Virus record (IMG/VR): IMGVR_UViG_3300032116_000060
Coordinates: 1-39,085 of that record
DNA from: a virus
Length of the DNA stretch: 39,085 nucleotides
Direction: 5' to 3' (one strand)
Shown: positions 25,215 to 38,822 of the stretch, piece after piece
How the letters are laid out: every line of letters begins with the position of its first letter
Position numbering within the stretch: the first letter of the stretch is position 1
Program-made: the position numbers and the translations under genes
The notes under the pieces: model-generated
Told to the model about the DNA's origin: nothing
Databases searched by the model: none
What the model saw: only the letters and a program-made list of their open reading frames with translations

Positions 25215-26945
25215 TTAACCACCAAATGTTGTAGTATTTCCAAGATCTATTGTTCCACTTTTAACGCTTGGAGTTGGTGTTGGTAGGGTAGCTCTATTGG
25301 CTGCTATCTGTTGTTGTAAAGTTTTTAATGCATCCTGTCTCATATCAGCCAATTGATTATCGATTCTTTGTATGTTTGCTTGTTGTTGTGCCTGTTGAGC
25401 ATTTTTAGCATCGATTGATGGTTGTATAATGTCATTGGCTATACCACCAACACTTTTGGCAACTGAATCACCTAAACTAGAAGCCTGGTTTAAAATGTTC
25501 GCCGGCGCATTCAATAAACTTAATGGGTCTTTTAGATTTATATTACCTATTCCACTCACAATGCCTTTACCTTGTGCTAACAACCCACCTACATTTGGTA
25601 GTTTGCCTAATCCGGGTAATGTGTTTAAATTATTTAAATTTAATTTTTTAGGTAATTGAGGTATTGAAGGCAAGTTAGGTAATTTTGGTAATTCAGGTAA
25701 TTCAAAATTCTTTAAGGTGAATTTTGTTTTTAAATTTTTATCCTTTGCTTCCCTTTTTTGTTTTTTCCTTTGTAATCTCGCATCTCTTCTCGCATCTCTT
25801 TTTGCCAATAAGGTAAATTTGAAATCCATAAAAAGGTTTTTAATATTTTTAGGAGTTGGTAGTTTTGTTTTAATAAGATTTTTAACAGAACTTATCTTAC
25901 CATTAATCGCATCTTTTGATAAAGCGGCTTTTAGGTCTTTAAACTTATCACCTAATTTGGCTGCGGTATCAGATAGATTTTTAATCGAATCCTTCGTATT
26001 ACCATATATACTTTTTATACCTCCTAATGCAGCATTAGCGATAGCAAAAGTAGTTCCAACTTTTGTTACTGAATCTATAATCTTACCCAACTTATCCGCC
26101 CTTTTATTATCAAATGAAACTGATGCTAATGTTTTACCGGGTTGTGGTTCATCAACAGGATTCAAATCAGCAACCGTTTTAACTTTTGGAGGTATAACAA
26201 ATGAATAATCTAATAGGGTAGTAGGAGTTGGCCCATCTAACCATTGAAGTAAAAATACAGGTGAAATGGTAAAACCATATAAAATACCACCATCTTTTTT
26301 CAATTTATCTGCTTCAAAATTATTATACTTATCCACAAATGATTGCCAGTTCAAAGTAATATAGGGGTATTGTGTTAAATCTTTTTCTAATGTATGCAAT
26401 ACCTTACCCAAATTAGTACTCCACTCCACTTGTAACTTCTCATAAACAAATTGTGAAATATATCTTATTCCATTTGATGGTGGGTGATTTTCGAATTGAA
26501 CTATATATGGGAAAAAAGTTTGAGGAACGACAACTACATTATCTAAATCATTATCTACTGGTATAGTAATCTTATTGATTGTACTATAAAATCCATATAG
26601 AGTTACATCAGTTTTTTTAGGAGTTGTAATAGTTCTAACTTCTATTTGCTCATCTTTGGTAATAATCACTTCCGGTTGAACAACCTTTATCACTTCCGGT
26701 GTAATTGATTTACCAACCTCGCCCTCTTCTAATTTGGGTTTTCGGTCTTTACCAAATTTTCTCCTAAGTATAGAATTATTTTCATCGGGCTTTCCTTTTT
26801 TCTTTTTTCCACCCGCTAATACAGCCGGTAGAACTGCCAAAGAAGCGCCTGCGGTAAATGGAGCTGCTAAAACTGCACCAACGCCGGCTACTAATTTACC
26901 AACTTTAGATTTGAAAAAATTACCGATATTTTTAAATAATCCCAT
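25215..26945 (-). CDS. Putative virion structural protein, 576 aa
   Basis: The N-terminus (MGLFKNIGNFFKSKVGKLVA) is an amphipathic helix followed by a Gly/Ala hydrophobic stretch (about 20-45) and a Lys-rich patch. The middle is beta-rich (VTLYGFYSTINKITIPVDND). Near residues 375-410 is a strongly basic region (KRDARRDARLQRKKQKREAK), followed by a Leu-Pro repeat (LPELPKLPNLPSIPQLPKKL) and a Gly-rich, helical, Gln-rich tail. The mixture of repeats and low complexity suggests a long virion or ejection protein. An ATATTTAT box lies 4 bases before the ATG, as at 31647. No enzyme motif is visible. Identity is inference. Confidence 0.55.
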   Translation of the reverse strand: MGLFKNIGNFFKSKVGKLVAGVGAVLAAPFTAGASLAVLPAVLAGGKKKKGKPDENNSILRRKFGKDRKPKLEEGEVGKSITPEVIKVVQPEVIITKDEQIEVRTITTPKKTDVTLYGFYSTINKITIPVDNDLDNVVVVPQTFFPYIVQFENHPPSNGIRYISQFVYEKLQVEWSTNLGKVLHTLEKDLTQYPYITLNWQSFVDKYNNFEADKLKKDGGILYGFTISPVFLLQWLDGPTPTTLLDYSFVIPPKVKTVADLNPVDEPQPGKTLASVSFDNKRADKLGKIIDSVTKVGTTFAIANAALGGIKSIYGNTKDSIKNLSDTAAKLGDKFKDLKAALSKDAINGKISSVKNLIKTKLPTPKNIKNLFMDFKFTLLAKRDARRDARLQRKKQKREAKDKNLKTKFTLKNFELPELPKLPNLPSIPQLPKKLNLNNLNTLPGLGKLPNVGGLLAQGKGIVSGIGNINLKDPLSLLNAPANILNQASSLGDSVAKSVGGIANDIIQPSIDAKNAQQAQQQANIQRIDNQLADMRQDALKTLQQQIAANRATLPTPTPSVKSGTIDLGNTTTFGG

Positions 26946-26949
26946 ACCA

Positions 26950-26957
26950 ATAAATAT
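26950..26957 (-). promoter_or_regulatory. ATATTTAT box, candidate late promoter
   Basis: Sense ATATTTAT then TGGT and the ATG at 26945. The same geometry (box, four bases ending GT, ATG) occurs at 31647 and 35135. No TTGG at the -33 distance. Confidence 0.45.
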
Positions 26958-26968
26958 GTTAATAGGAA

Positions 26969-27811
26969 TTATCTATGTTTTGATTCCAAATATGAAACCA
27001 ACTCTTTTGCATACCCTCTATGCCCCAATACACCAGGATGAACATCTTCAATAGAAACCTCATCCACTATTCTACCTCTATTTTTTTGGGCCCAAATGTA
27101 AGATGAACCAAATGGTAAAATATTATCGGAAAAAATACGTTCTTTTAACCCAACTAAATCGTAATTGAGTTCTTCGGTTATATAAAAAGTTACACCATTT
27201 AATTTTAGGAAAGAAAGAAAGGTAATAAGTTCTCTTGTCAATTTTTGAAATATTTGTTTTGGATTTAAACACTCCTCCACAAATGGTTTTAAAATTGGTC
27301 TTAAATGGTTATTATCATCTGAATAAACCCTTTTAGCATAATCCCTACAACTAAACCATTCATCTATTGTATTATTTTCAGAATGTATTGTATAATTAAA
27401 TAATGTATATTGATTGAATGTATTAGAATAAAATTCCAACCTACTAAAATCAGCCAATTCCAAAATAACTAAAATCTTATCTCTTATCTCCCAATTTTCG
27501 GATATGAAATCATAGGTAGTTCTTATTATTCTCTCTATACCCCCACCACTTTGAGCATCATTAATAGTTTGTATTTTTGATGTATCGGCAAATATCGATG
27601 GGTATGCAACATCTAATCGTGAATTCCAATAGGGAATACCATAAGTTTCGTTGTATATCTTTAAAACATCTCTCCTACCATCCTTTAAATCTTTTTCAAC
27701 ACCATTCTCATCTCTCTCATTCCAATCAACATCGTTAATGGTTTCTAATCCACCTCCTTGCGTAAAAGAACATCCGTTAAAATACGCAAGATTAAACTTT
27801 TGGTTTAACAT
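26969..27811 (-). CDS. SGNH/GDSL-type hydrolase
   Basis: The 280-residue protein has YFNGCSFTQGGGL (block I), INDAQSGGGIERIIR (block II), LVILELADFSR and a C-terminal EDVHPGVLGHRGYAKEL with the catalytic His. It lies between the 124-residue gene (TAA-T-ATG) and the structural gene 25215, outside the main tailoring block. A role on the virion, for example as a glycan deacetylase, is possible. Confidence 0.72.
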   Translation of the reverse strand: MLNQKFNLAYFNGCSFTQGGGLETINDVDWNERDENGVEKDLKDGRRDVLKIYNETYGIPYWNSRLDVAYPSIFADTSKIQTINDAQSGGGIERIIRTTYDFISENWEIRDKILVILELADFSRLEFYSNTFNQYTLFNYTIHSENNTIDEWFSCRDYAKRVYSDDNNHLRPILKPFVEECLNPKQIFQKLTRELITFLSFLKLNGVTFYITEELNYDLVGLKERIFSDNILPFGSSYIWAQKNRGRIVDEVSIEDVHPGVLGHRGYAKELVSYLESKHR

Positions 27812-27812
27812 A

Positions 27813-28187
27813 TTATTTTTTTATTGTAAATGTTTCTAATAGAAATTTTTGTCTCTTATTAAGAAACTCTATTGATTTGCTTGTATCGGATAGGGCATAA
27901 ACTAATTCTCCCTCTTTATTAACTGCCATTCTCAAATAACCCTTATGGTTAAGTTCATATAACGTGGATGATAACCCATCCCTATTTAGATTGTGTATCA
28001 ATAACCCCAATTCTTTAGTATCTAAATCCACCACACCTTCACTCTTATATTTTTTATACATCGAAGCCTGGAGTGTCAATTTTAATTTTACAGGTAGGAT
28101 AAAGGGGTATTCTTCAAAAAATGAACCCTTCTTTAAAAGCCTTACAATATGCTCAGCTTTATCATTAATTTCTTCTTCTATATCCAT
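27813..28187 (-). CDS. Hypothetical protein, 124 aa
   Basis: The sequence has a winged-helix feel: helix DKAEHIVRLLKKG, then LGLLIHNLNRDGLSSTLYEL, followed by a strand pair KGYLRMAVNKEGELVYALS and a C-terminal helix. This suggests DNA binding, but no family is recognised. It is preceded by an ATATTTAT box at 28203-28210 and by the terminator of the upstream gene at 28210-28240, so it starts a new transcript. Confidence 0.6.
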   Translation of the reverse strand: MDIEEEINDKAEHIVRLLKKGSFFEEYPFILPVKLKLTLQASMYKKYKSEGVVDLDTKELGLLIHNLNRDGLSSTLYELNHKGYLRMAVNKEGELVYALSDTSKSIEFLNKRQKFLLETFTIKK

Positions 28188-28202
28188 ATAACATCATTTT
28201 AA

Positions 28203-28210
28203 ATAAATAT
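28203..28210 (-). promoter_or_regulatory. ATATTTAT box, candidate late promoter
   Basis: Sense ATATTTAT, 15 bases upstream of the ATG at 28187 and directly after a terminator. Same box as at 26950 and 31652. Confidence 0.35.
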
Positions 28211-28240
28211 AAAAAAAATGGTGATAGAAACTACCACCAT
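28210..28240 (-). terminator. Rho-independent terminator
   Basis: A 10-bp stem ATGGTGGTAG / CTATCACCAT (one G-T pair) with a TTT loop, followed by eight T on the minus strand. It ends the transcript carrying 28262-28456. Confidence 0.88.
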
Positions 28241-28261
28241 CGATAAACACTATGTAATAAA

Positions 28262-28456
28262 TTATTTTTTTCTCTTTTGAAAAAATTCTTTAATAGTAAG
28301 AAAATACCACATTGGTAGTGTTACTATACAATTCAAAAATAGAAAGAAATTGGATAGGAATCCATTCATTACAATGTTTTGTTTCTTTAACTCATTAGTA
28401 ACCCCAATAATCATAGGGAACATAAGAATCATATATACACATAAAAAAATGTTCAT
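28262..28456 (-). CDS. Small membrane protein, 64 aa
   Basis: Two hydrophobic segments (FLCVYMILMFPMIIGVT and LFLNCIVTLPMWYFLTI) and a basic tail (FFQKRKK). The start is the ATG at 28456, which follows the previous stop as TAA-T-ATG; the longer frame to 28480 would overlap that gene by 23 bases. Function unknown. Confidence 0.65.
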   Translation of the reverse strand: MNIFLCVYMILMFPMIIGVTNELKKQNIVMNGFLSNFFLFLNCIVTLPMWYFLTIKEFFQKRKK

Positions 28457-28457
28457 A

Positions 28458-28937
28458 TTAAAAAATTTGAAATCCCCCACAATTGCGGAGGAATATGATA
28501 AAATCTTTTATTCTACCAACCGATGTAGAGTGAGCCGATTCAACTGCTAATCCTTCTGATGTTACTACCGATGAATACATAATTTCTCCATAGGGGTATT
28601 GTTCGTTTAATGAAACTTCTTTTTCAGTTCCGATGAATCGACCTGTTCCAAATTCACACCATGCTCCTAAACAAAGATATATCCTATCATCATCACCTTT
28701 TAAGTTGAAATCGTTTCCCAAAAGTTTCTCCAATGCATCTGCTAACTTATCACACTGCTTTTGTGTACGAAGGCCTTTACCATCGTTTGAACCCCAATGA
28801 GAAAAATCAATCTTTAATTTTGATTGTTCAGCCGCCAATTGGCAAATGTAATTAATAGGTCTCCATCCCCACCAATTACTCGCAAAATAATCACCCACTT
28901 CTGTTTTTGGGTTTCTACCTGAAATATCTACTCCCAT
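28458..28937 (-). CDS. Hypothetical phage protein, 159 aa
   Basis: Begins MGVDISGRNPKTEVGDYFA followed by NWWGWRPINYICQLA, a Trp-rich segment typical of a family of phage and bacterial proteins of unknown function. It later has LCLGAWCEFGTGRF. Start context TTAAAATATAAAATTATG is shared with the next gene. No catalytic motif recognised. Confidence 0.72.
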   Translation of the reverse strand: MGVDISGRNPKTEVGDYFASNWWGWRPINYICQLAAEQSKLKIDFSHWGSNDGKGLRTQKQCDKLADALEKLLGNDFNLKGDDDRIYLCLGAWCEFGTGRFIGTEKEVSLNEQYPYGEIMYSSVVTSEGLAVESAHSTSVGRIKDFIIFLRNCGGFQIF

Positions 28938-28952
28938 AATTTTATATTTTAA
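28935..28952 (-). repeat. 18-base start-region repeat, copy 1
   Basis: Sense TTAAAATATAAAATTATG, ending in the ATG of 28458-28937. A second identical copy is at 29187-29204. It represents the A-rich, SD-free start context. Confidence 0.6.
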
Positions 28953-28958
28953 ATTTTA

Positions 28959-29189
28959 TTAATAACTCATTTCGATTTCCTCTACGAATTTACCATCTTC
29001 AAACCAATACATTCTACCTAACTCAATAACTTCAACTACACATCTACCTTCGTTATAATCCAAAAGGTTTTCACATTCATCCCAAATCCACGGAATATCT
29101 TTTTTATCTAACATTATGCAAAACTCAGTTGCGGAAAGAGAATGGGCTTCATACTCTAAAAATTCTAATAACTCTTTTACTTTACTCAT
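28959..29189 (-). CDS. Hypothetical protein, 76 aa
   Basis: Acidic (KELLEFLEYEAHSLS, IWDECENLLDY). No motif. Its leader is identical over 18 bases to that of 28458-28937 (see the repeat entry). It follows the SWIM gene by 4 bases. Confidence 0.6.
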   Translation of the reverse strand: MSKVKELLEFLEYEAHSLSATEFCIMLDKKDIPWIWDECENLLDYNEGRCVVEVIELGRMYWFEDGKFVEEIEMSY

Positions 29190-29204
29190 AATTTTATATT
29201 TTAA
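29187..29204 (-). repeat. 18-base start-region repeat, copy 2
   Basis: Same 18 bases as 28935-28952, ending in the ATG of 28959-29189. A related version (AAAATATAAACTATG) precedes the gene at 35326. Confidence 0.6.
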
Positions 29205-29529
29205 CTTTTAATGATTTAATATGCTTACAATCTCTACCTCTACTCCAACCAAATGCGGGACAACTACAACTCCATTTTCCTTCATCATTTAAGACCTTAT
29301 ATATGTTTCCTTTACTACCTTCTACATTATAATTAGCTTTAATACGTTTAGGAGATTCTTTCTTTAGAGTAGTATATGTAATTCTATTCCACATTTTACT
29401 TAACTCATCCCAATCATATCGTCTATCCACTTTAACCCATCCTAATTTAGAATCAGTAGTTGCTATATACCATTGTCCATCTACAACTGATTGAATACAT
29501 ACCGGTGGTAATAATGAATTTATAACCAT
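29194..29529 (-). CDS. SWIM zinc-finger protein
   Basis: The 111-residue protein ends with WSCSCPAFGWSRGRDCKHI, matching the SWIM zinc finger CxC...CxH (Cys88, Cys90, Cys101, His103). SWIM fingers bind DNA or protein. The N-terminal part has short strands around WYIATTDSKLGW. It lies in a run of small genes after the promoter at 30036-30066. Confidence 0.78.
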   Translation of the reverse strand: MVINSLLPPVCIQSVVDGQWYIATTDSKLGWVKVDRRYDWDELSKMWNRITYTTLKKESPKRIKANYNVEGSKGNIYKVLNDEGKWSCSCPAFGWSRGRDCKHIKSLKVKI

Positions 29530-29532
29530 CTT

Positions 29533-29745
29533 TTATCTATATAAGGTTACGAAACTACCAAAATGTTCATCGAACACATTTATTGCGTTCTCATAATCAC
29601 CACTCATCATTTTAGCTTGAATTTCTTTGCCATCTAATCCTAATTGTTTGGCTAAGTTTTTAGCTGTTCCAATTAAGAAAAACACATTACCTTGTGGGCC
29701 CGTTAAATCGATTTCGATACCTTTGTTTTGTTTACTCTTTATCAT
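29533..29745 (-). CDS. Hypothetical phage protein, 70 aa
   Basis: Contains DLTGPQGNVFFLIGTAKNLA and a helical, acidic second half with DYENAINVFDEHFG. The TGPQGN..LIG pattern recurs in small phage proteins of unknown role. It starts within the operon after 29750-30013. Confidence 0.68.
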   Translation of the reverse strand: MIKSKQNKGIEIDLTGPQGNVFFLIGTAKNLAKQLGLDGKEIQAKMMSGDYENAINVFDEHFGSFVTLYR

Positions 29746-29749
29746 AATC

Positions 29750-30013
29750 TTATTTTTTATTCTCTTTGATGAAATTAATTGTGATTGCTATTCTATCAGT
29801 AATGTGAGTCGGTAAACCCAATTGTTTTGCTGATTCTAACATCTCTGTGTAAAGGTATCCATCCCATACACCACACAACATATTGTAAACCTCATTGAAC
29901 CAACTTTGTTCTTTAAGGATATAAAACATCTCCATTTGGTTTAGTGTTTCTCTATGATACGCCATCCATGTGGAGTTGAATAATTCGTGGCGGTTAAATC
30001 GTATAATGTTCAT
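29750..30013 (-). CDS. Hypothetical protein, 87 aa
   Basis: A helical protein with aromatic residues (MNIIRFNRHELFNSTWMAYH, then VWDGYLYTEMLESAKQLG). First gene after the repeated promoter cassette at 30036-30066, with the conserved ATG-TAA in its leader. Function unknown. Confidence 0.66.
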   Translation of the reverse strand: MNIIRFNRHELFNSTWMAYHRETLNQMEMFYILKEQSWFNEVYNMLCGVWDGYLYTEMLESAKQLGLPTHITDRIAITINFIKENKK

Positions 30014-30035
30014 ATCTTATCTTTTTATTACATAG

Positions 30036-30066
30036 TAAAGATAGGAATAAATTTTGGATTTTCCAA
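30036..30066 (-). promoter_or_regulatory. Host-type promoter with conserved ATG-TAA leader
   Basis: TTGG at 30066-30063, 19 bases, TATCTTTA at 30043-30036, then CTATGTAATAAAAAG. Near-identical to the cassette at 4255-4285. Confidence 0.82.
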
Positions 30067-30084
30067 GTAATAAGGGAATTATTT

Positions 30085-30116
30085 TAAAAAAATAACCCAT
30101 TGAAAATCAATGGGTT
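30085..30116 (-). terminator. Rho-independent terminator after 30148-31647
   Basis: Perfect 10-bp stem AACCCATTGA-TTT-TCAATGGGTT with ATTTTTTT. The sequence from here through the next promoter is a diverged duplicate of 4235-4335. Confidence 0.88.
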
Positions 30117-30147
30117 ATGATAAAAAAAATATATAAATTTATATTGG

Positions 30148-31647
30148 TTAATTCTTAATAAAAGTTAATTCACTCGCATCATAGGTTTTTGTTGAACCAT
30201 TTGGGAATTTAAGGTGGAATTTTCTACCATAAGTTTTGATAATAAGGCCGGTTTTGTTTATTGCCTTAACATTAGCCACATCCCCCACTTCTACATCTTG
30301 CCATTTTAGTTCGGTTGCCTCATTTACACTCTCATTAAATCTTCTTCTACTTTCCATAGATTTCCAATTTACACCTTTAATAAGGTCGTCTAATGATTTA
30401 AACGCGGGTGAAGAAATTATTTTACCAACTAATACATAGTTACCACCCATATTTTTTTGAATCTTACCTGTTCCAATTACTTGCCAAAAGTTTCTATCTA
30501 CTCCTTTGGGAACAATAAAATCAATTATATTACCAACACCCTTAATTATTTTTAATTTTTGGTCTTTGGTTATATCTTCTAATGATTTATTTGATGGGAT
30601 ACCCTCTAATCCTTTAAATTGTTTTTCGGAAAGGATCGATTCTACTTCCAATTCAGCATCTGCATTTAATTTTTGGATATACTCTTCTTCCATATCTCTT
30701 AACTGAATCAAATTCTTTTCGTATCCTTTGATTTGATTTGTTAATTTGATAAGGATTTGTTTTAAGGTCTCCTTTTTCTTAGGATCAGTTTCGTTATTAT
30801 AAGGAACTACTGCCCTTTTTCTATCGGCCATTAATTCTTTAATCTTCTTTTCAACTGCCGCAGTTTTTACAAAAATTTTAGGAACATTCGAACTGATTTC
30901 GTTTACCGATTCTCTTACAAATTTACCATCTTTATCTGCTACATAATAAGCAATCATATTATATGAACCACCTCTTTGCTTTTCAAGCTTTTCTACTTCT
31001 TTTTTAGCATCTTTGTATGATGAATAAGAATCTTTGAATACACCTGTTCCTTGCCCTCTACCTTTATTATATCCTACATGGTATAAACCTTCACCCAATT
31101 GATTACTCGTATCGGTTTTAAAGAAAGGGCCTCTTCTAATAGTTTTAAAATCCAAACTCATTTCGTTTCCGAAAATCTCTTTTGGAGCTAGGATTCTTAA
31201 TCGAATAGTTCCATTACTATTATCTACTCCTAATGTTTCAAAATCAATTTGATTATATGATTTACCTTTAAATTTTAAGTTCTTACCGGTAATTAATTTA
31301 TGAACTTTACCACCACTAACCGCTTGATTCTCTTTAAGACTTCTTTTTTGAAGAACTAATTTATTTATATCGGAAAACAAATCTGCTATATCTTTATCTA
31401 ATTTTTTTTCATCTGCCGTCATAGGTGTTTCAATATCTACATCGGAATATAATTTCTTCTTCTTTGCTATCAAAGTATCTACTTTTTTAAGTAAATCGTT
31501 TTTAGCTTTATCCAAATCCTTAATGATGTCATCTTTTGTAGATTCGGTGACAGGAACACAATTAGGAACTTGCTTTCCACCCTTATTTTTCATACCAACC
31601 TGCTTATATCCGGTCCAGCATTCAGTAAGTATCGGTTTTAATTTCAT
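30148..31647 (-). CDS. Putative virion structural protein, 499 aa
   Basis: Begins MKLKPILTECWTGYKQVGMK followed by GGKQVPNCVPV, a motif (W-x-GYKxxGMKxKGGKxVPNCV) repeatedly seen in virion-associated proteins of large marine phages. Coiled-coil regions follow (KDLDKAKNDLLKKVDTLIAKK at about 41-61, and about 270-340). Two segments with ESVNEI / NESVNEAT (about 248 and 435) may mark domain or cleavage junctions. The end is a small beta domain (VEVGDVANVKAINKTGLIIK). An ATATTTAT box lies 4 bases before the ATG. Likely structural or prohead-related, not certain. Confidence 0.58.
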   Translation of the reverse strand: MKLKPILTECWTGYKQVGMKNKGGKQVPNCVPVTESTKDDIIKDLDKAKNDLLKKVDTLIAKKKKLYSDVDIETPMTADEKKLDKDIADLFSDINKLVLQKRSLKENQAVSGGKVHKLITGKNLKFKGKSYNQIDFETLGVDNSNGTIRLRILAPKEIFGNEMSLDFKTIRRGPFFKTDTSNQLGEGLYHVGYNKGRGQGTGVFKDSYSSYKDAKKEVEKLEKQRGGSYNMIAYYVADKDGKFVRESVNEISSNVPKIFVKTAAVEKKIKELMADRKRAVVPYNNETDPKKKETLKQILIKLTNQIKGYEKNLIQLRDMEEEYIQKLNADAELEVESILSEKQFKGLEGIPSNKSLEDITKDQKLKIIKGVGNIIDFIVPKGVDRNFWQVIGTGKIQKNMGGNYVLVGKIISSPAFKSLDDLIKGVNWKSMESRRRFNESVNEATELKWQDVEVGDVANVKAINKTGLIIKTYGRKFHLKFPNGSTKTYDASELTFIKN

Positions 31648-31651
31648 ACAT

Positions 31652-31659
31652 ATAAATAT
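31652..31659 (-). promoter_or_regulatory. ATATTTAT box, candidate late promoter
   Basis: Sense ATATTTAT-ATGT-ATG upstream of the putative structural gene 30148-31647. No TTGG at the -33 position. Confidence 0.45.
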
Positions 31660-31677
31660 AATTTTATTCCAAAAAGA

Positions 31678-32181
31678 TTATATGTTTTTTAATCTCTCCT
31701 CTAATTCCTTCTTTAAATCCCCATTCACCTTAATCCCATCTATTAATTCACTCATCATTTTACCATAATCAATAGTAGTTCCACTATTTTGAACCATATT
31801 AATAATACCACTACTTGCACCCCCACCATTTATTCGATGTGATATAGTAGAAACAAGTTTTTCCTCCATCATTAGGATTTCATCCACTAATCCTTCAAAG
31901 ACCATTCTAAAATCGGAAAGTTTTAGCATCATTGCTCGTGAAACAATTGTTTGTGTGGACATTCGGTTTTCCCCTTCGATGGAAACAAAAAAATCAGTTG
32001 AACCCATTCGGAATTTATGATTATTAGTCAATACTTTTAATTTCCAAATAGGTTTATCAGGTCTATTAAAATTAATTATTTGAGTTGTATATTTAGTTTC
32101 TTCAGCATTGTGAATTGGATTTACAATTGTTAATCCTTTATACGTTATACCACTTAACTTCTCCCAACCTTTTATTTTCAT
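31678..32181 (-). CDS. Hypothetical protein, 167 aa
   Basis: N-terminal beta-rich half (YKGLTIVNPIHNAEETKYTTQ, WKLKVLTNNHKFRMGSTDF), then a helical region (LSDFRMVFEGLVDEILMMEEK) and a helix-rich tail with SHRINGGGASSG. No motif recognised. It follows the methyltransferase gene by 2 bases. Confidence 0.65.
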   Translation of the reverse strand: MKIKGWEKLSGITYKGLTIVNPIHNAEETKYTTQIINFNRPDKPIWKLKVLTNNHKFRMGSTDFFVSIEGENRMSTQTIVSRAMMLKLSDFRMVFEGLVDEILMMEEKLVSTISHRINGGGASSGIINMVQNSGTTIDYGKMMSELIDGIKVNGDLKKELEERLKNI

Positions 32182-32183
32182 AA

Positions 32184-33515
32184 TTAATAAAGATAGATGT
32201 AATCGTTATAAGAATCGGATACCAATTTTTGTCTTATTCTTTCATCGGATACATCAAAATGTTGCGCCGCATCTTTGATAGAATAAAAATCAATTCCTTC
32301 ACATTGAATAGTATGCAACTGTTCCCTTACCACTACACCTTCTAAACTTTTTTCATGCTCTTCATATGAAATGTTAGTAGTAGGTTCTTCTAATTGAATC
32401 CAATGGCGGTAAAGAGGATTGGATGAATAGATGCGGTTTCTAATTTCACCAACACTCATATCAATGTATTGTGAAGCCTGCACCGGTGATTCAAACAAGT
32501 ACCCATCTAAACTTATTTTTAATACGGGTTTAGTTTCTTCCCCAATCACCTGCCAATCTTTGTATTTAATTTTTGGAGAAAGGCATCTTCTTTCTACTTC
32601 GGAGGCAACTAATATATCAGCATCTATTGAAATAGCGGCCTCTCTAAATGATTTATACTTTTTTCCTTCTACTATACATTTGTATTCACCATCCCATTCT
32701 AATTCTTCTGTGGCAAGGTCGGGATTACCTTTTACAAAAGTAAGTACATTTTGGTGAACGGATGGAACTTTTCGGTTTCTTTCAAAGTAAGTATCTCCTA
32801 CTCTTGATGCCGCATGTTGCGAATTGATTAAAATCATATCATTGTAAAATTTGTAACCTGCTTCCTCACATATTTTTATTGTATCCGGAACTAATCCTTT
32901 GTAACTACCGATTTTGTAACTACCTGTCTTTGTAAGTTCTCTAATTTCTGATACCACAATTGTAAAAAAGCGGTTTGGTTTTAATTTGTTAAACGTTTGT
33001 TTTAGTATTGATTTATATTTGTTTAAAAATGTTTGATAATCCATATTAGATAAATCATCAGGTGAATCCGAATAGATTTCTAAATCATGATAAGGAGGGC
33101 AAGTAAATATGTAATCATAGCCCTCATCATCTAATAGGGTAAGTTCTTTATCACTGTCACCGAAAATCCAATTTGGTTTATGGGATTGTAATCGGTTCGC
33201 TTCTATTTGTGTTTCGGATAAATCTATACCATCGTATCTTAATCCCATTTCGGTTGCAATGATTCCTCTCACACTCCCACCTGCAAATGGGTCTAATACC
33301 TTACCACCTTTAAGTGCAAACCATTCATACATCTTTTCACATAAGGTTGCATCAAAGATAGAAACGGTGTTCTCTTCGGTATCCCAAAAGCGAGATTTGG
33401 ATATGGTTGCCTCTCTACCTAATTCTGATTTGATTCCATAGGTATTTATCCACCATCTTTTACGGTCTTGCCATTCTTTGGTTCGAGAATCTAAAATGGA
33501 AAATGGTTTTATCAT
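32184..33515 (-). CDS. DNA methyltransferase fused to NUMOD1-like repeats
   Basis: Residues 1-260 form an amino-methyltransferase: motif I KVLDPFAGGSVRG (72-84), YDGIDLSETQIEANRL (94-109) and motif IV TCPPYHD (138-144). Residues about 280-443 hold three repeats of the type G/dGxxFxSxxxAAxxxxVSxxxIRxxL: KKYKSFREAAISIDADI at 285-301, YLFESPVQASQYIDMSVGEI at 339-358, IDFYSIKDAAQHFDVSDERI at 408-427. These resemble the NUMOD1 DNA-binding helices of homing endonucleases. The fusion suggests an unusual target-recognition module. It overlaps the upstream 40-residue peptide gene (ATGA). Confidence 0.82.
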   Translation of the reverse strand: MIKPFSILDSRTKEWQDRKRWWINTYGIKSELGREATISKSRFWDTEENTVSIFDATLCEKMYEWFALKGGKVLDPFAGGSVRGIIATEMGLRYDGIDLSETQIEANRLQSHKPNWIFGDSDKELTLLDDEGYDYIFTCPPYHDLEIYSDSPDDLSNMDYQTFLNKYKSILKQTFNKLKPNRFFTIVVSEIRELTKTGSYKIGSYKGLVPDTIKICEEAGYKFYNDMILINSQHAASRVGDTYFERNRKVPSVHQNVLTFVKGNPDLATEELEWDGEYKCIVEGKKYKSFREAAISIDADILVASEVERRCLSPKIKYKDWQVIGEETKPVLKISLDGYLFESPVQASQYIDMSVGEIRNRIYSSNPLYRHWIQLEEPTTNISYEEHEKSLEGVVVREQLHTIQCEGIDFYSIKDAAQHFDVSDERIRQKLVSDSYNDYIYLY

Positions 33516-33634
33516 CCGTTAATTAAAAATAGGATAAAAAGAATTACCATTCGGAACGCGTGGAAAAGAATAAAGAATCCCAATCCAACACCGATGATTT
33601 TTAATGCAAGTTCAATCCAGTTTTTGTTTTTCAT
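33512..33634 (-). CDS. Membrane peptide, 40 aa
   Basis: ATG at 33634 overlaps the stop of the upstream gene (ATGA), and the stop at 33512 overlaps the methyltransferase start. Sequence MKNKNWIELALKIIGVGLGF is followed by a long hydrophobic segment to the end. One membrane span. The double overlap supports a real gene. Confidence 0.68.
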   Translation of the reverse strand: MKNKNWIELALKIIGVGLGFFILFHAFRMVILFILFLING

Positions 33635-33993
33635 TTTTTAGTTTTATTAACTCTCATACCATAATCATTGTATTCGAAATCATTTTTAGGTAGATTATTA
33701 TCATAATCAGCCGGTAGGTTAGCAAGGTAATCATTCATCGCCTTTGTTTCTTCCTCATTGAATGAAATAGTTTCTCTATCCTCCTCATTATATTCATCTG
33801 CCTTTTCCAATACCCAATGTTTAAGGGAATCGTTACTATATCCCATACCGATGATTAAAGTTTGGAACGCCTCCATTACTTCATTTAAATCCAAATCAGA
33901 ATGGTCAATCTCAACGGTAGTTTTTGTTCCGTAAGTTTGTGCCGTAAATATGGCAGGTTTGTTGAATCCGGTTGTAAAATTTTCGTAACCCAT
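33631..33993 (-). CDS. Hypothetical protein, 120 aa
   Basis: Acidic, with HSDLDLNEVMEAFQTLIIGM and EEDRETISFNEEETKAMND. No motif. Its stop overlaps the start of the 40-residue membrane peptide. Function unknown. Confidence 0.65.
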   Translation of the reverse strand: MGYENFTTGFNKPAIFTAQTYGTKTTVEIDHSDLDLNEVMEAFQTLIIGMGYSNDSLKHWVLEKADEYNEEDRETISFNEEETKAMNDYLANLPADYDNNLPKNDFEYNDYGMRVNKTKK

Positions 33994-34001
33994 TTGTTTT
34001 T

Positions 34002-34211
34002 TTATTTAAGTGGAAAATATTTGCCAATTGCTTCTAACCTATCATCCGCATCTATTAACATCTTTAATGCATCTTCTGCATTCTTATAGAAATCATCGGT
34101 TGAATGGTCTCCAATACCAACTCCTCTATTTTCTAATAGGTCTAAAGTAAGGAGGGCCTTTGCTCTATCCGCTTCCGCAGTTGCTCTTAACATTTTTACT
34201 AATTTGCTCAT
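34002..34211 (-). CDS. Hypothetical protein, 69 aa
   Basis: Mostly helical (MSKLVKMLRATAEADRAKAL, NAEDALKMLIDADDRLEAI), no Cys and no membrane segment. It may be an oligomerising small protein. Unknown. Confidence 0.62.
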   Translation of the reverse strand: MSKLVKMLRATAEADRAKALLTLDLLENRGVGIGDHSTDDFYKNAEDALKMLIDADDRLEAIGKYFPLK

Positions 34212-34226
34212 ATATTTTTTTTTGTT

Positions 34227-34412
34227 TTAATTTTCAATTTCTACATTCGGTATGTGCCTACAAAAAAGTAGAACCCCATTATGTTTAAGTGTAATATCAC
34301 ATTGCCAAAATTCTTTTACCATTTCGATGTTTTTCACCGAACCTTCTTTTACTTTTCGATAAACCCAATATAGTTCATCTTTATATGTTATTAATTCTTT
34401 TCCTAAACTCAT
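34227..34412 (-). CDS. Hypothetical protein, 61 aa
   Basis: Mixed sequence with ELYWVYRKVKEGSVKN and a short beta part. It begins TAA-T-ATG after the upstream membrane protein, the usual coupled geometry. Unknown. Confidence 0.58.
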   Translation of the reverse strand: MSLGKELITYKDELYWVYRKVKEGSVKNIEMVKEFWQCDITLKHNGVLLFCRHIPNVEIEN

Positions 34413-34413
34413 A

Positions 34414-34758
34414 TTATTTCCAAAATATACTTACTAAAAGGATAAGAAGAGCAAGAATAATCTGAACTAATACTTTGAGCGAAAAATTCTGATTATAATG
34501 AAGTGGGTATAATATAATACCAACAAATACACCGGTGATAAAAAATAAAAAACGATTACTCCACATACTTCCTCCAAAACCCGCTACTCCATATTCACTC
34601 GCCTTTATCCATAACCAAGTGCAAACAATTGCTATTAGGTAAGGATATGGTGACTTAATCCAATTCGGCATTTTAAATTGCCAATACATAATATACCAAT
34701 GACCGAAACCACCCAACATAAAAAGTGTGAATGATTGTAATATTTTAATTATATTCAT
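34414..34758 (-). CDS. Multi-span membrane protein, 114 aa
   Basis: Four likely membrane spans: near LQSFTLFMLGGFGHWYIMYW, YPYLIAIVCTWLWIKASEYG, NRFLFFITGVFVGIILYPL and VLVQIILALLILLVSIFW. No further motif. It may affect the host membrane; nothing specific can be said. Confidence 0.68.
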   Translation of the reverse strand: MNIIKILQSFTLFMLGGFGHWYIMYWQFKMPNWIKSPYPYLIAIVCTWLWIKASEYGVAGFGGSMWSNRFLFFITGVFVGIILYPLHYNQNFSLKVLVQIILALLILLVSIFWK

Positions 34759-34761
34759 AAC

Positions 34762-34887
34762 TTATTTAATTCGTTTACCATTTTTATATACCCACAATTC
34801 ATCCACACCCTCTTTGTTTGTGACAATAAAGGTAAAAATCTCATCCTTCTTAAATAAGGATTTAATCCAATGCATAACCTTTTTCAT
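34762..34887 (-). CDS. Small hypothetical protein, 41 aa
   Basis: ATG at 34887 (MKKVMHWIKSLFKKDEIF...) stops TAA at 34762, 3 bases before the membrane protein start. Amphipathic N-terminus then a beta hairpin-like end (ELWVYKNGKRIK). The gap it fills and the start spacing support it. Confidence 0.55.
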   Translation of the reverse strand: MKKVMHWIKSLFKKDEIFTFIVTNKEGVDELWVYKNGKRIK

Positions 34888-34892
34888 AAAAT

Positions 34893-35135
34893 TTAATTTA
34901 GGCAGATTGGTCCAAACTTTTCTTCGAAAGTAGGAGGGGCTAGAAATTTATCTATTTGTTTTTGAACAACACCCATTGCTTTATTCGTATCTTCCCACTC
35001 ATAATCTTCAATTCTTGCGGTGATGTATGTGTGAACACACCTCATGACTTCCTTCAAAGGTAGCGATAATTCCAAAAGATATGGAATCAATTGTTCGTTT
35101 ACTTCTTCGTTTAATTGTTCGTGAGAAACTTTCAT
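34893..35135 (-). CDS. Hypothetical protein, 80 aa
   Basis: Helical (HEQLNEEVNEQLIPYLLELS) with a C-terminal FEEKFGPICLN. The start is the ATG at 35135, after an ATATTTAT-TAGT leader; a longer frame to 35162 would begin with TTG inside the upstream gene. Unknown function. Confidence 0.62.
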   Translation of the reverse strand: MKVSHEQLNEEVNEQLIPYLLELSLPLKEVMRCVHTYITARIEDYEWEDTNKAMGVVQKQIDKFLAPPTFEEKFGPICLN

Positions 35136-35139
35136 ACTA

Positions 35140-35147
35140 ATAAATAT
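35140..35147 (-). promoter_or_regulatory. ATATTTAT box, candidate late promoter
   Basis: Sense ATATTTAT-TAGT-ATG, same four-base spacing as at 26945 and 31647. Confidence 0.4.
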
Positions 35148-35326
35148 TAAATGGTCGTACAATCTTCAAAAGCGAAATGATATGCATCGGTAGGATGAAT
35201 ACCACCATCGATATAATTTTGAGCCTTCTCTTCTACTTCGGTTCTACAACCCCACGCGGAGGCCTCAACCAATACCAATTCAATGTCTTGCAAATCGCCA
35301 ATTGTTAAATCATACTTTGTGTTCAT
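35147..35326 (-). CDS. Hypothetical protein, 59 aa
   Basis: ATG at 35326, stop TAA at 35147. The acidic sequence (YDLTIGDLQDIELVLVEASA, then GGIHPTDAYHFAFEDC) is predicted helix then loop. It fills a 200-base interval between two coding genes, with the usual leader AAAATATAAACT before ATG. Unknown function. Confidence 0.6.
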   Translation of the reverse strand: MNTKYDLTIGDLQDIELVLVEASAWGCRTEVEEKAQNYIDGGIHPTDAYHFAFEDCTTI

Positions 35327-35336
35327 AGTTTATATT

Positions 35337-35795
35337 TTAAAAAGGTAATTGTTCTAAATTGTTATAAATGAAATAGGAAATTTTATATATGATGGTATCG
35401 ATGGTAACCTCACTCCTTTCTATTGAATATGTTTGGTGAATGTTACCGCTTCTAAAATCCATATTATAATCACCCCCTTCGACATTTTTAGTTCGGCTTA
35501 TCACCGCATTAATCCTTCTACCATTCCAATCAATTAACATTTCATAATCTTTATAATCCTCTTCAATCGAAATCACATCAAAAGAGAAATCGTTTATATT
35601 ATTAAGTTGTGTATCATAATGACCGATGATTTTGCGGAAATTTTGGATAGTAAGGGTAATCTCTTTGGACTTCTCTACAATCTCATACACATCAGCAAGA
35701 AAATCTTTCCAATCCTTTTTATGACCGTATTTGGAATAGAGTTGTTGAACATCCATCCCAATCGTTTTTAATAATACATCATCTATTTCTTTCAT
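35337..35795 (-). CDS. Hypothetical protein, 152 aa
   Basis: Contains KEITLTIQNFRKIIGHYDTQLN (about 43-64) and beta segments YEMLIDWNGRRINAVISRT. The motif IQNxxxIxGxxxD is shared with the 36326-36769 protein (LKIQNIQSIVGMPYDDRLN), so the two may be distant paralogues. Four-base overlap with 35792-35983. Confidence 0.64.
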   Translation of the reverse strand: MKEIDDVLLKTIGMDVQQLYSKYGHKKDWKDFLADVYEIVEKSKEITLTIQNFRKIIGHYDTQLNNINDFSFDVISIEEDYKDYEMLIDWNGRRINAVISRTKNVEGGDYNMDFRSGNIHQTYSIERSEVTIDTIIYKISYFIYNNLEQLPF

Positions 35796-35983
35796 TCTCT
35801 TAAACCATTTTCCGGTCCTAAAATCCGTCCATTCGATTTAGAATAAGCCTTTTGATAGTTTATCCACCATACGGCTTCCCAATCTGCTCTCCTCTCCTGC
35901 CACTCCCTAATCCGCTTATCGTTGTAATCACATAAGGTAGCCACTCCCAACTCCTTACACCATTCGTTGTATTCCATAAACAT
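35792..35983 (-). CDS. Hypothetical protein, 63 aa
   Basis: The start is the ATG at 35983 (MFMEYNEWCKELGVATLC); a second ATG at 35977 is also possible. A TTG upstream is part of the promoter -7 box. The EYNEWCKELGV segment recurs as EFNQWARELGV in 37796-38014. Trp-rich middle (ADWEAVWWINYQ). The promoter box lies 3 bases before the ATG, so it is probably leaderless. Confidence 0.63.
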   Translation of the reverse strand: MFMEYNEWCKELGVATLCDYNDKRIREWQERRADWEAVWWINYQKAYSKSNGRILGPENGLRE

Positions 35984-35986
35984 AAC

Positions 35987-36017
35987 CAAATATACAAAAA
36001 ATAATTGAGTATTCCAA
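35987..36017 (-). promoter_or_regulatory. Host-type promoter, probable leaderless start
   Basis: TTGG at 36017-36014, 19 bases, TATATTTG at 35994-35987, then GTT-ATG. Same spacing to the ATG as at 5096. Confidence 0.8.
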
Positions 36018-36019
36018 AT

Positions 36020-36295
36020 CTAATCTCCACCTATTAAGACGGAAACATAAAAAGAAAATAATTCCCTATCTTCAATCGCCGCCTTCGTAATATCGATATG
36101 ATTAGAACCGTATCGGAGACGGTAACAATCATCCCTTACCAAATGGCGATGAAGGCGGACATCCTTTCGTTGATTACCATCAGTATCGTTTATATAGAAG
36201 TAGTAATCCCATCGGTGTAAAACCACTTTACCAAATACCCAATCATCGGAAATGCGGTGACCGGTAATCCTATCGGTATTCTGAATGATTAACAT
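36020..36295 (-). CDS. Hypothetical protein, 91 aa
   Basis: Basic and aromatic (VLHRWDYYFYINDTDGNQRK, LHRHLVRDDCYRLRYG). No motif. It ends just upstream of the promoter at 35987-36017. Unknown function. Confidence 0.6.
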   Translation of the reverse strand: MLIIQNTDRITGHRISDDWVFGKVVLHRWDYYFYINDTDGNQRKDVRLHRHLVRDDCYRLRYGSNHIDITKAAIEDRELFSFYVSVLIGGD

Positions 36296-36325
36296 ATAGT
36301 AGAGATTTACCGCAAACCATTTTCA

Positions 36326-36769
36326 TTATATAGTATTCATACAAATTATAATCTTTTCAATAGTATCTATCTCATCACTACCCAGCCATAAGGTTTTAGA
36401 ATCATACTCCATAATGTAATGACCCGAATCGGTTTGTCTTCGATGTAAAAGGATTTGATACCCACCGGTTTTAGCCGTATTATCTAAATTAAATTGGTAG
36501 TACTTATCCTCCTCTACCACACCTACGATGTTTAGGCGGTCATCATAGGGCATCCCCACTATGGATTGAATGTTTTGAATCTTTAACTTTACACTCTTCG
36601 ATTCAAATAGGTCTTTATGCCCCTTCATCCATTCATCTATTACCATACGGGCCTTTTGTTCGGCAACATCCCGAATTTGTTGAGCAACATTTGAATTCGG
36701 TTGGGATATATTCACCGATACTCCTTTTGGTGGTGGAGCCGTCATCGGTGGTATTGGTATTCTACTCAT
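36326..36769 (-). CDS. Hypothetical protein, 147 aa
   Basis: Pro-rich N-terminus (IPIPPMTAPPPKGVSVNI) followed by a helical region and a beta domain with LKIQNIQSIVGMPYDDRLNI; it ends IEKIIICMNTI. Similar to 35337-35795 in the IQN..I.G..D segment. Unknown function. Confidence 0.64.
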   Translation of the reverse strand: MSRIPIPPMTAPPPKGVSVNISQPNSNVAQQIRDVAEQKARMVIDEWMKGHKDLFESKSVKLKIQNIQSIVGMPYDDRLNIVGVVEEDKYYQFNLDNTAKTGGYQILLHRRQTDSGHYIMEYDSKTLWLGSDEIDTIEKIIICMNTI

Positions 36770-36771
36770 TC

Positions 36772-37020
36772 TTATTTAATTTTTAGATAACTAATCCCTC
36801 CCCCCTTCCTCTCCTTCTTTTCCCTAATTACCTCTACCGCCCAATCATAGGTATAAGAACCGGTAGGTGATACATCCACCCAATCACCCAATCCCCTTCT
36901 TTGTTGTGGAAAGTGGTAACTACTACCATCCGAATGAGTAACCCTTTTAATTCGATACTCTACGCAAGAAGATAACACTCCCATTATCATTCCTACTACA
37001 ACTATTTTTTTAATCATCAT
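36772..37020 (-). CDS. Small lipoprotein, 82 aa
   Basis: Lipoprotein signal: MMIKKIVVVGMIMGVLSSC with lipobox L-S-S-C. The start is the ATG at 37020, which overlaps the upstream TGA; a start at 37041 would put extra residues before the signal. The mature part is basic with Tyr/Trp (GDWVDVSPTGSYTYDW). It is the second lipoprotein of the window. It may modify the envelope or block superinfection; unproven. Confidence 0.7.
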   Translation of the reverse strand: MMIKKIVVVGMIMGVLSSCVEYRIKRVTHSDGSSYHFPQQRRGLGDWVDVSPTGSYTYDWAVEVIREKKERKGGGISYLKIK

Positions 37021-37346
37021 ATTCCTAAACCATTTAACCATTCTAAAAGTATATACGAAATCTTATACCCTACAAACGCCCCAAAAGCAGATGAATAGGG
37101 AAATACAATCAACTTACCCAAATCGGTAACATACTTTGGACGGTTCACAATCTTACCCATAAAAGTGTAATATGTTATATACCCAATCAATACCGCTAAA
37201 TCCGTCCGAGTGGCAATAAATACGACTAAGGTTGCACCCAAAAATCCAAAAATGAAATTATCCCTAAACCCTTCCCACACTTCGGTAGGGGATGCATCCT
37301 TCCACTCTTTGATTATCTTATATATTTTTGCTTTGCTTCTTCTCAT
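37017..37346 (-). CDS. Membrane protein, 109 aa
   Basis: Basic N-terminus (MRRSKAKIYKIIKEWKDA), then hydrophobic segments IFGFLGATLVVFIATR, LAVLIGYITYYTFMG and SAFGAFVGYKISYILL. Three likely spans. It overlaps the next and previous genes by a few bases. Unknown function. Confidence 0.66.
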   Translation of the reverse strand: MRRSKAKIYKIIKEWKDASPTEVWEGFRDNFIFGFLGATLVVFIATRTDLAVLIGYITYYTFMGKIVNRPKYVTDLGKLIVFPYSSAFGAFVGYKISYILLEWLNGLGI

Positions 37347-37647
37347 CGTTATATTTATCGATTAACTTTCCTATACACCCTAACAATATACCTATATTCT
37401 TTAAATCTGGTATCCTTAAATCGAATTGAATAGGAGAATAGTAAGCAATTCTTAATGAATACTCATTGTTTCCATATTCATCTTCAAACCCTTCTTTATG
37501 TAATACCACTTTTATCTTCTCATTCACATCTGAAAGGATACTTCTTAACTCAAAGATGTAAATATGATCATTCTCATCAACTTCATGAAAATACATATCC
37601 CTAACTATCTCTTCCTTTATCTTATGTATATTTTCTATCTTTAACAT
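37318..37647 (-). CDS. Hypothetical protein, 109 aa
   Basis: Mixed alpha/beta sequence (IFELRSILSDVNEKIKVVLH, IRIAYYSPIQ-like strands). It overlaps the membrane-protein start by 29 bases, so the overlap or start is uncertain. A TAATG at its start overlaps the candidate frame at 37647-37772. Unknown function. Confidence 0.6.
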   Translation of the reverse strand: MLKIENIHKIKEEIVRDMYFHEVDENDHIYIFELRSILSDVNEKIKVVLHKEGFEDEYGNNEYSLRIAYYSPIQFDLRIPDLKNIGILLGCIGKLIDKYNDEKKQSKNI

Positions 37648-37772
37648 TACTTATCAACTTTCCATATAGGTAAAATTTTTTCTCCGAAATTTTTACCTTC
37701 GGAGGTATAATATATATTTTTCCACACGTAGTAAAAGCCAACACAAACATTCGAGGATACCCCAGCCCCCCT
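37647..37772 (-). pseudogene. Possible broken small membrane-protein gene
   Basis: A frame ending VGFYYVWKNIYYTSEGKNFG then KILPIWKVDK has a stop that overlaps the next ATG (TAATG), as real genes here do. But it has no ATG upstream; its open frame begins after a TAG at 37773, next to a G-run (GAGGGGGG) where a frameshift is easy. It could be a decayed gene, a sequencing error, or chance. Confidence 0.3.
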
Positions 37773-37795
37773 CTAACTCATTGACTTTCTTACGG

Positions 37796-38014
37796 TTACA
37801 TAAAACCTAACACATCTACGCCCTTCACGCCCCACTCCCTTATCATCTCCATTGGGCGGTTACCTTCGACTACGGGTGTGTATGAGCTACTCACTCCCAA
37901 CTCTCTCGCCCATTGGTTGAACTCTAACTGCTCTTTTGGGTATATACTCCTTTGTACTACGGCACCGTTTGGTAAGACCCTCCTACCTTCTAATTCGATA
38001 TACTCGTTATTCAT
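37796..38014 (-). CDS. Hypothetical protein, 72 aa
   Basis: Contains QLEFNQWARELGVSSSY and MIREWGVKGVDVLGFM. The EFNQWARELGV segment matches EYNEWCKELGV in 35792-35983, and both are followed by an IREW. The two may be paralogues or share a short domain. Unknown function. Confidence 0.62.
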   Translation of the reverse strand: MNNEYIELEGRRVLPNGAVVQRSIYPKEQLEFNQWARELGVSSSYTPVVEGNRPMEMIREWGVKGVDVLGFM

Positions 38015-38015
38015 A

Positions 38016-38309
38016 TTAACTTAGGTTACTTAGTATTACTCCTCTCCATCCTCCTAATCTCGCTTCTTCTGCTCCCTCCCATTCGAAGAACTCCTCATTC
38101 GGTTTCTCATATAGGTATAGTTGGAAATTATCACAAAATTGCTTTAGATACTTACTCTCTTCTTCCCAACTCATATCCCATCTCTGTCCATTTGGTCTGA
38201 ATGTACTATATATCCAATCCATTACATCACATATATTCAGTATATGGAATTCTTCCTTCTCTAATTGTTCTATTACTCTTACTCTTCCTTCGTTATACAT
38301 AGTGGTCAT
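38016..38309 (-). CDS. Hypothetical protein, 97 aa
   Basis: Acidic with Trp and Tyr (NICDVMDWIYSTFRPNGQRW, EEESKYLKQFCDNFQLYLYE). A start at M4 (MYNEGRVRV) is also possible. No motif. Unknown function. Confidence 0.62.
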   Translation of the reverse strand: MTTMYNEGRVRVIEQLEKEEFHILNICDVMDWIYSTFRPNGQRWDMSWEEESKYLKQFCDNFQLYLYEKPNEEFFEWEGAEEARLGGWRGVILSNLS

Positions 38310-38343
38310 ATTTTACTAAATTATTTTTTGTTTCCGACAACCA

Positions 38344-38541
38344 TTAGGATTCGTACTCCATATCTATCTGGCGTTGAAACAACTCGGCCTTTGCCAGGTC
38401 GTACTTCACCATACTAATCAAATCTCTCTCCCAAAACTCAATATTCAACTCCATAGGGCTAACTCCCAAATGGAGAGCTCTACTCTCTACGAAGTTACAA
38501 TACTCATTAACACTCATACCACGCACATCAATCAGTTCCAT
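38344..38541 (-). CDS. Hypothetical protein, 65 aa
   Basis: The first ATG (38550) lies only 4 bases after the leader's ATG-TAA, while the second (38541, MELIDVRGMSV) has the 13-15 base spacing seen in the other copies of this promoter cassette; I prefer the second. The sequence is helical and acidic with FVESRALHLGVSPMELNIEF. Unknown function. Confidence 0.58.
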   Translation of the reverse strand: MELIDVRGMSVNEYCNFVESRALHLGVSPMELNIEFWERDLISMVKYDLAKAELFQRQIDMEYES

Positions 38542-38562
38542 ATCTCTCATCTTATTACATAG

Positions 38563-38593
38563 TAAATGTAGTAAAAAAGATTGAATTATCCAA
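38563..38593 (-). promoter_or_regulatory. Host-type promoter with conserved ATG-TAA leader
   Basis: TTGG at 38593-38590, 19 bases, TACATTTA at 38570-38563, then CTATGTAATAAG. Confidence 0.75.
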
Positions 38594-38601
38594 GCATTTA
38601 G

Positions 38602-38694
38602 TTAAAAACTTTTGAAAAAACCAAAAATAATTTCCAATAGGGTGGGTTGGACCGGATTGATGGCCTCCACATAGTACTTAATTGCTCTACTCAT
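38602..38694 (-). CDS. Small peptide gene, 30 aa
   Basis: ATG at 38694, stop TAA at 38602. MSRAIKYYVEAINPVQPTLL then a hydrophobic IIFGFF segment. One base separates it from the 34-residue gene's stop codon. Low-complexity checks are not possible by eye; likelihood moderate. Confidence 0.45.
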   Translation of the reverse strand: MSRAIKYYVEAINPVQPTLLEIIFGFFKSF

Positions 38695-38695
38695 C

Positions 38696-38800
38696 TTACT
38701 TAGTTTTAGAATGTTCGATTACTGTCTTTACGAATACATACCCTACAATACACACACCGGTGAAAAGGGTTACTAAAATGGTTTCTCCGATTGTTATCAT
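38696..38800 (-). CDS. Membrane peptide, 34 aa
   Basis: ATG at 38800, stop TAA at 38696. MITIGETILVTLFTGVCIVG followed by YVFVKTVIEHSKTK: one transmembrane span with a basic tail. It is the first frame after the promoter at 38823-38853. Confidence 0.55.
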   Translation of the reverse strand: MITIGETILVTLFTGVCIVGYVFVKTVIEHSKTK

Positions 38801-38822
38801 ATTATCTCTTTTGATTACATAG

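Follow-up and report, generated by a model that had tools for sequence, protein, structure and literature searches.

Phage proteins with a ParB-CTPase fold are frequently fused to methyltransferases of the N6_N4 type, as surveyed in PMC12704722. Examples are encoded by Listeria phage PSU-VKH-LP041, Enterococcus phage phiFL3A (gp36) and HCTV-2 (gene 11). In Paracoccus (pro)phages, 36 ParB/N6_N4 methyltransferase fusions were reported, with genes lying upstream of the terminase genes, and it was suggested that the ParB-like proteins steer modification during packaging (PMC6536676). Homing endonucleases carry targeting modules of another kind, their DNA-binding regions being arranged like beads on a string (PMC2988022). 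The same paper describes I-TevI as a 28-kDa enzyme that as a whole recognises 38 bp, in which a GIY-YIG nuclease, a zinc-finger linker, elongated segments and a helix precede a single HTH; its DNA-binding domain winds round 20 bp, many base changes in the site are tolerated, and the protein is also an autorepressor.

The window studied here, a stretch of 39,085 nucleotides (positions 1 to 39,085 of IMG/VR virus record IMGVR_UViG_3300032116_000060), contains a minus-strand ORF in which a methyltransferase core is followed by three I-TevI-type HTH repeats (Table 1). The ORF runs from ATG to stop with exactly the limits given in the first-pass annotation, which had proposed an amino-methyltransferase domain, three NUMOD1-like repeats, a swapped recognition region and, possibly, methylation at long specific sites. 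We consider it on balance probable that the product is a phage SAM-dependent DNA amino-methyltransferase guided by its C-terminal array of three HTH modules. Like the ParB fusions, the protein is phage-borne and joins a further module to the core in one polypeptide, and the cores of the three examples named above are 41-48% identical to that of the window and share its CPPY.DLE signature; unlike them, it has no ParB-like domain and carries the HTH modules at the C end. With I-TevI (1i3j, PF20987) it shares the last protein element, matched by repeat 3 in both sequence and fold, but the HTH is present in three copies and stands behind a methyltransferase. Both halves belong to known families; no description of their combination was found in the open-access literature searched.

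Table 1. Features of the methyltransferase-array ORF, with coordinates in the window and residue numbers in the protein
Feature	Position	Strand	Remarks
Whole ORF, methyltransferase core and three I-TevI-type HTH repeats	32184..33515	-	443 aa
Amino-methyltransferase core, residues 1-272	32700..33515	-	PHROG_12517, N6_N4_Mtase, Trm11/TrmN-like fold
Motif I LDPFAGGS, residues 74-81	33273..33296	-	invariant or nearly so in two alignments
Motif IV TCPPY, residues 138-142, putatively catalytic	33090..33104	-	CPPY invariant in 14 diverse cores
Repeat 1, residues 277-326	32538..32687	-	E-E-H-H-E, high pLDDT; conservation 0.86; HHalign weak
Repeat 2, residues 329-375, I-TevI-type HTH	32391..32531	-	PF20987, HHalign, AlphaFold, PADLOC
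Linker between repeats 2 and 3, residues 376-398	32322..32390	-	variable; short predicted helix; conservation 0.51; pN/pS 0.46
Repeat 3, residues 399-443, nearest I-TevI C-terminal HTH	32187..32321	-	HHalign 97%; 1i3j Z 7.6

At the sequence level, the protein passed the cut-off of the I-TevI_DNA-bd family (PF20987; E 4.8e-9, 36.4 bits against a cut-off of 27) through two stretches, although single repeats taken alone in a six-frame search scored 21.7 and 19.7 bits, below that threshold. The NCBIfam model grpIintron_endo matched residues 400-441 (1.4e-6, under its cut-off) and a PADLOC homing-endonuclease model matched residues 325-371 (5.9e-7). The term NUMOD1-like holds in the sense of a homing-endonuclease DNA-binding HTH, the I-TevI family being related to NUMOD1, but strict membership of NUMOD1 (PF07453) was rejected, since the protein reached 15.6 bits where the cut-off is 22.8 and none of 16 records exceeded that value. 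Profiles built from 47 distinct full-length family members were compared in HHalign with the C-terminus of real I-TevI (record OR062947.1), giving a probability of 97% for repeat 3 and 75% for repeat 2, with 89% between these two repeats. Repeat 1 obtained 20% against repeat 2, 11% against repeat 3 and 0.1% against I-TevI, while control segments from the core remained at or below 3.1%. Column shuffles (60 each) equalled the real score in no case for repeats 2 and 3, in none for repeats 1 and 2 and in two for repeats 1 and 3. Judged by sequence, repeats 2 and 3 are secure, and the case where the repeats align with no DNA-binding helix family, which the first-pass annotation had seen as fatal to its proposal, did not arise.

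The assignment of repeat 1 as a third module depends mainly on predicted structure. AlphaFold2 returned a pLDDT of 83 for the full protein and 94 for the C-terminus alone, and predicted the order strand-strand-helix-helix-strand (E-E-H-H-E) for all three repeats. When the array alone was searched against the PDB with Foldseek, nothing was retrieved at E<=0.001, and the first-ranked entry was the I-TevI DNA-binding domain (E 0.043). The alignment with 1i3j (VIA-align Z 7.6, rmsd 1.4 A, 42 residues, 31% identity) lies entirely in repeat 3, whose order of secondary structure is that of repeats 1 and 2. A viral structure library yielded seven matches to the array at E<=0.001, the five named ones being three homing or intron endonucleases, one HNH endonuclease and one NUMOD1 protein, with the best match at E 1.1e-7 and an I-TevI-like homing endonuclease of Serratia phage Moabite among such proteins. 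Enzymes of the Moabite type have a DNA-binding region like the array, but the window protein carries no nuclease domain: the six Pfam families matching it at E<=10 include neither GIY-YIG, HNH or LAGLIDADG nor another nuclease, which places it outside the homing endonucleases.

The relation of the array to the ParB-type module was examined among the best 80 of 592 core relatives. Within these best 80, the 17 array carriers all lack a long N-terminal extension, and the array model matches none of the other 63, where the extension measures at least 120 aa in 34 proteins, fewer than 70 aa in 28 and an intermediate length in one; array and long extension are thus never found together. An extension model was built from 33 of these proteins; that it matches 34 proteins and none of the 17 array carriers serves as a consistency check. 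ParB_N (Pfam) was detected in three of five named phage ParB-methyltransferases tested, two of the three under the cut-off, and in none of 13 phage records of the window lineage, an absence to be read in light of that detection rate of three in five. The window core itself begins at residue 1-5 with no ParB match, which sets the protein apart from the ParB fusions. A quick maximum-likelihood tree with 89 rows sets the 21 array carriers apart from all other rows by a single branch (support 100), and they adjoin ParB-bearing rows, the latter with weak support (82). Most likely, a homing-endonuclease-type array took the place of a ParB-type targeting module. The idea of a swapped recognition region survives in the sense that relatives of the core either bear a ParB-like domain at the opposite terminus or have no added module, with both present in none of the proteins classed, but what was swapped out looks like a ParB-type targeting module instead of a classical target-recognition domain.

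In the mechanism that we propose, a core of the kind that in other phages has a ParB-like domain, attached or neighbouring, as its guide would be directed by three HTH modules docking side by side on DNA in homing-endonuclease fashion. Each module would read its own sub-site, as suggested by the second helices, whose separately conserved sequences differ by repeat (VAtEVeRRC in repeat 1, Es.aRn in repeat 2, SdERIRQK in repeat 3). The array would place the core on a base beside or within a long composite site, and few sites per genome would be methylated, the mark perhaps shielding the DNA of the phage itself against nucleases of the host or of rivals, or tagging DNA for packaging or expression. 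By analogy with I-TevI, the three modules could span roughly 15-30 bp and bring the core into position. A stronger version, which we put forward only tentatively, is a natural ultra-specific methyltransferase acting on one or a few long sites (about 15-30 bp) as an epigenetic tag of a locus and not in bulk anti-restriction; if so, the tagged locus would be a homing site, the site of the gene itself, or a signal for packaging or expression.

An alternative that we hold to be possible though unlikely, much as this stronger version, is that the array tethers the enzyme to DNA in a sequence-tolerant way, the core choosing a short ordinary motif while the repeats only raise affinity or processivity, a role that would liken them to what the ParB domain may do in relatives. 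The tolerance of I-TevI for base changes in its site, described in PMC2988022, is in keeping with such a tether, and the core may have a specificity of its own, given that 28 of the 63 array-less proteins among the best 80 of 592 relatives do without a long extension. Second helices conserved separately and differently in each repeat would, however, be superfluous for mere tethering.

The genomic setting bears on a further explanation. The relatives are T4-like: a T4-type portal protein occurs in 8 of 10 records, a T4-type major head protein in 13 of 19 records searched, and contigs reach 289 kb; a prohead protease was found in 31 of 46 sequences examined, in one example (L017) upstream of the methyltransferase. 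In 9 of 13 cases the array end lies 1.4-3.6 kb upstream of the capsid gene on the same strand, and in the other four the two genes are more than 100 kb apart. No portal or capsid gene was seen in the window's own 103 kb record, so its copy may be of the far-from-capsid kind. A TAnnTTTG box, which we take to be the Bacteroidota promoter consensus, precedes the methyltransferase start by no more than 30 nt in 17 of the 28 first-scan loci (the 28 having 21 distinct upstream sequences) and precedes none of 175 other ORFs of at least 150 aa in the same loci, and it is mostly preceded by a terminator-like hairpin with a T run (L002-L028). The host may accordingly belong to the Bacteroidota. In the window copy the box is missing, and the gene overlaps the preceding ORF. 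Overall, the gene has the look of an insert transcribed on its own. Late expression coupled to packaging had been considered from the position in the capsid cluster, and is weakened by the gene's own promoter-like box (17/28 against 0/175).

Such features are those of a mobile gene, and they raise the rather improbable alternative of a locus guard derived from homing, in which the array stems from a homing endonuclease and the methyltransferase marks the target of that endonuclease, so protecting the allele of its own phage from being cut by rival phages, or else represses a promoter as I-TevI does. The homology of the array to I-TevI, the differing genome places of the gene (near the capsid gene in 9/13, more than 100 kb away in 4/13), the promoter-like sequence of its own in 17/28 and the autorepressor activity of I-TevI (PMC2988022) would all fit, but no donor or partner homing endonuclease was found in the same phages by searches with PF20987, NUMOD1, GIY-YIG, HNH_3 and the array profile. 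Matches to PF20987 or NUMOD1 at E<=0.001 were confined to the methyltransferase ORF in the records searched, GIY-YIG appeared in 1 of 13 records and HNH_3 in 3 of 13, all under cut-off, and the array-profile scan gave only the methyltransferase gene.

Most genes adjoining the window ORF are not kept beside the methyltransferase in relatives, and for this reason no partner gene is proposed. As regards a cognate restriction activity, three neighbouring ORFs had no match in PADLOC, and the ORF at 7222-8802 matched methyltransferase models only. The latter (minus strand, 526 aa) is a second ORF of the N6_N4_Mtase type, with TSPPY near its C-terminus and a Pfam match just under cut-off (2.2e-5). 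A modular family with the recurring peptide CW.GYKQVGMK.K.G..VPNCVP is encoded at 30148-31647 (minus strand) and, in relatives, just upstream of the methyltransferase (e.g., L017:3085-3945), its modules being reshuffled between phages and found on opposite sides of the methyltransferase. The window also encodes, on the minus strand, a tryptophan halogenase (17753-18994, 2.7e-84), an arginine-deiminase-family protein (8836-9861, 9.6e-7) and a 2OG-Fe(II) oxygenase (5111-5902, 8.2e-6), and elsewhere in the record there is a radical-SAM-like protein (L123:5435-6673, minus strand). This set is reminiscent of the cyanophage halogenase/2OG-oxygenase biosynthetic cluster described in PMC7824862. A phage-encoded chaperonin GroEL was also noted (L121:12611-14245, minus strand; PHROG 5725, 2.1e-180).

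Turning to the core, the catalytic domain proposed by the annotation was borne out by N6_N4_Mtase (PF01555; E 2.2e-10, 41.3 bits, above the cut-off of 26.7) and by PHROG_12517, which matches residues 2-273 with an E of 3.4e-78. Residues 134-283 align to the start of the N6_N4_Mtase profile (2-111 of 221) and, in a relative (L187), residues 63-103 align to its end (176-216), which indicates a motif order of I then IV, permuted relative to the Pfam model. LDPFAGGS we take to be motif I, presumably involved in SAM binding. C139-P-P-Y, D144-L-E and Y148 do not vary among 14 diverse cores, and the window core has every residue invariant in these relatives, including CPPY and the following DLE; with its full-length match, this places it in the PHROG_12517 / ParB-methyltransferase clade. 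Amino-methyltransferases usually have [D/N/S]PP[Y/F/W] as motif IV, and the window core departs from this canonical N6-adenine/N4-cytosine form, as do all 14 cores aligned from the clade, which read CPPY. The nearest solved folds are the tRNA m2G methyltransferases Trm11, Trm14 and TrmN (Z 17.6-18.9). Given the cysteine in motif IV and this tRNA m2G-like fold, adenine and cytosine are no more than candidate target bases.

That fold could also be taken to mean that the enzyme methylates RNA (tRNA, mRNA or rRNA), the array binding structured nucleic acid or keeping it near transcription, a reading that seems to us more doubtful still than the locus guard. The best solved matches do lend themselves to it; however, a shared fold says nothing on substrate, the family and PADLOC matches are DNA methyltransferases, the array's homologue was solved bound to DNA (1i3j), and relatives of the core are fused to ParB domains.

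The fusion of core and array is widespread among uncultivated viral sequences. Scans of 2.9 million viral contigs, giving 29, 76 and 68 loci per scan together with the best 80 of 592 relatives, revealed 63 distinct viral-contig loci with core and array in one ORF after merging of overlapping identical loci, one of which (the L001 group) encodes a protein 100% identical to that of the window. The set from the A1 scan comprised 76 proteins (the window and L045-L119, with L044 omitted as its sequence is the same as the window's); a length filter of 425-480 aa dropped 16 of the 76 and kept 60, 47 of them distinct. The proteins dropped were contig-cut or frameshifted copies (L099, L101, L104, L113, L115, L116 and L118), one short match (L119) and distant array-less core relatives (L106-L111, L114 and L117). 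All three repeats are present in each of the 60 full-length proteins, window included, and the fusion is incomplete only in copies truncated at the end of a contig and in a single copy with a frameshift (L101/L189). In all collected loci, the array model found core-less ORFs in two cases only, I-TevI and the second reading frame of L101/L189.

Elsewhere the two halves occur apart. Among 50,697 phage records, 34 match the window protein and none covers 80% of it; in isolated phages the core lacks the array and frequently follows an N-terminal domain resembling ParB. The array alone matches 23 phage records, of T4-like phages (E 0.02-0.09), in which the features annotated at these places are mostly homing endonucleases. 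No cellular homologue of the fusion was confirmed in scans of bacterial and archaeal genomes with the whole protein and the array profile; in plasmids only distant cores were seen (5 of 72,556 records, none covering 80%), and megablast with window positions 25000-39085 matched no close known phage.

The fusion is under purifying selection. Mean column conservation in the 47 sequences is 0.84-0.87 for the core, 0.86 for repeat 1, 0.75 for repeat 2 and 0.78 for repeat 3, against 0.51 for the linker, repeat 1 being the most conserved repeat and level with the core. The pN/pS ratios, calculated from 178 close, non-independent pairs, are 0.14 for the core, 0.16, 0.22 and 0.27 for repeats 1 to 3, and 0.46 for the linker. 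Gene fusions with mobile elements do occur, so that the array might be a decaying homing-endonuclease tail without function, but this very improbable alternative is largely refuted by conservation, with no repeat lost from any of the 60 full-length proteins (47 distinct), pN/pS of 0.16-0.27 across them and repeat 1 as conserved as the core.

Guidance of a DNA amino-methyltransferase by its HTH array is the reading that we retain as the most probable. Methyltransferases acting on single long sites have been engineered, and we know of no natural amino-methyltransferase described with a specificity derived from a homing-endonuclease array. If the array does set the site, this family, with its 60-odd variants open to comparison, would supply natural examples that need no engineering and would allow a direct test of the exchange of catalytic and recognition modules between ParB-guided and HTH-guided phage enzymes.
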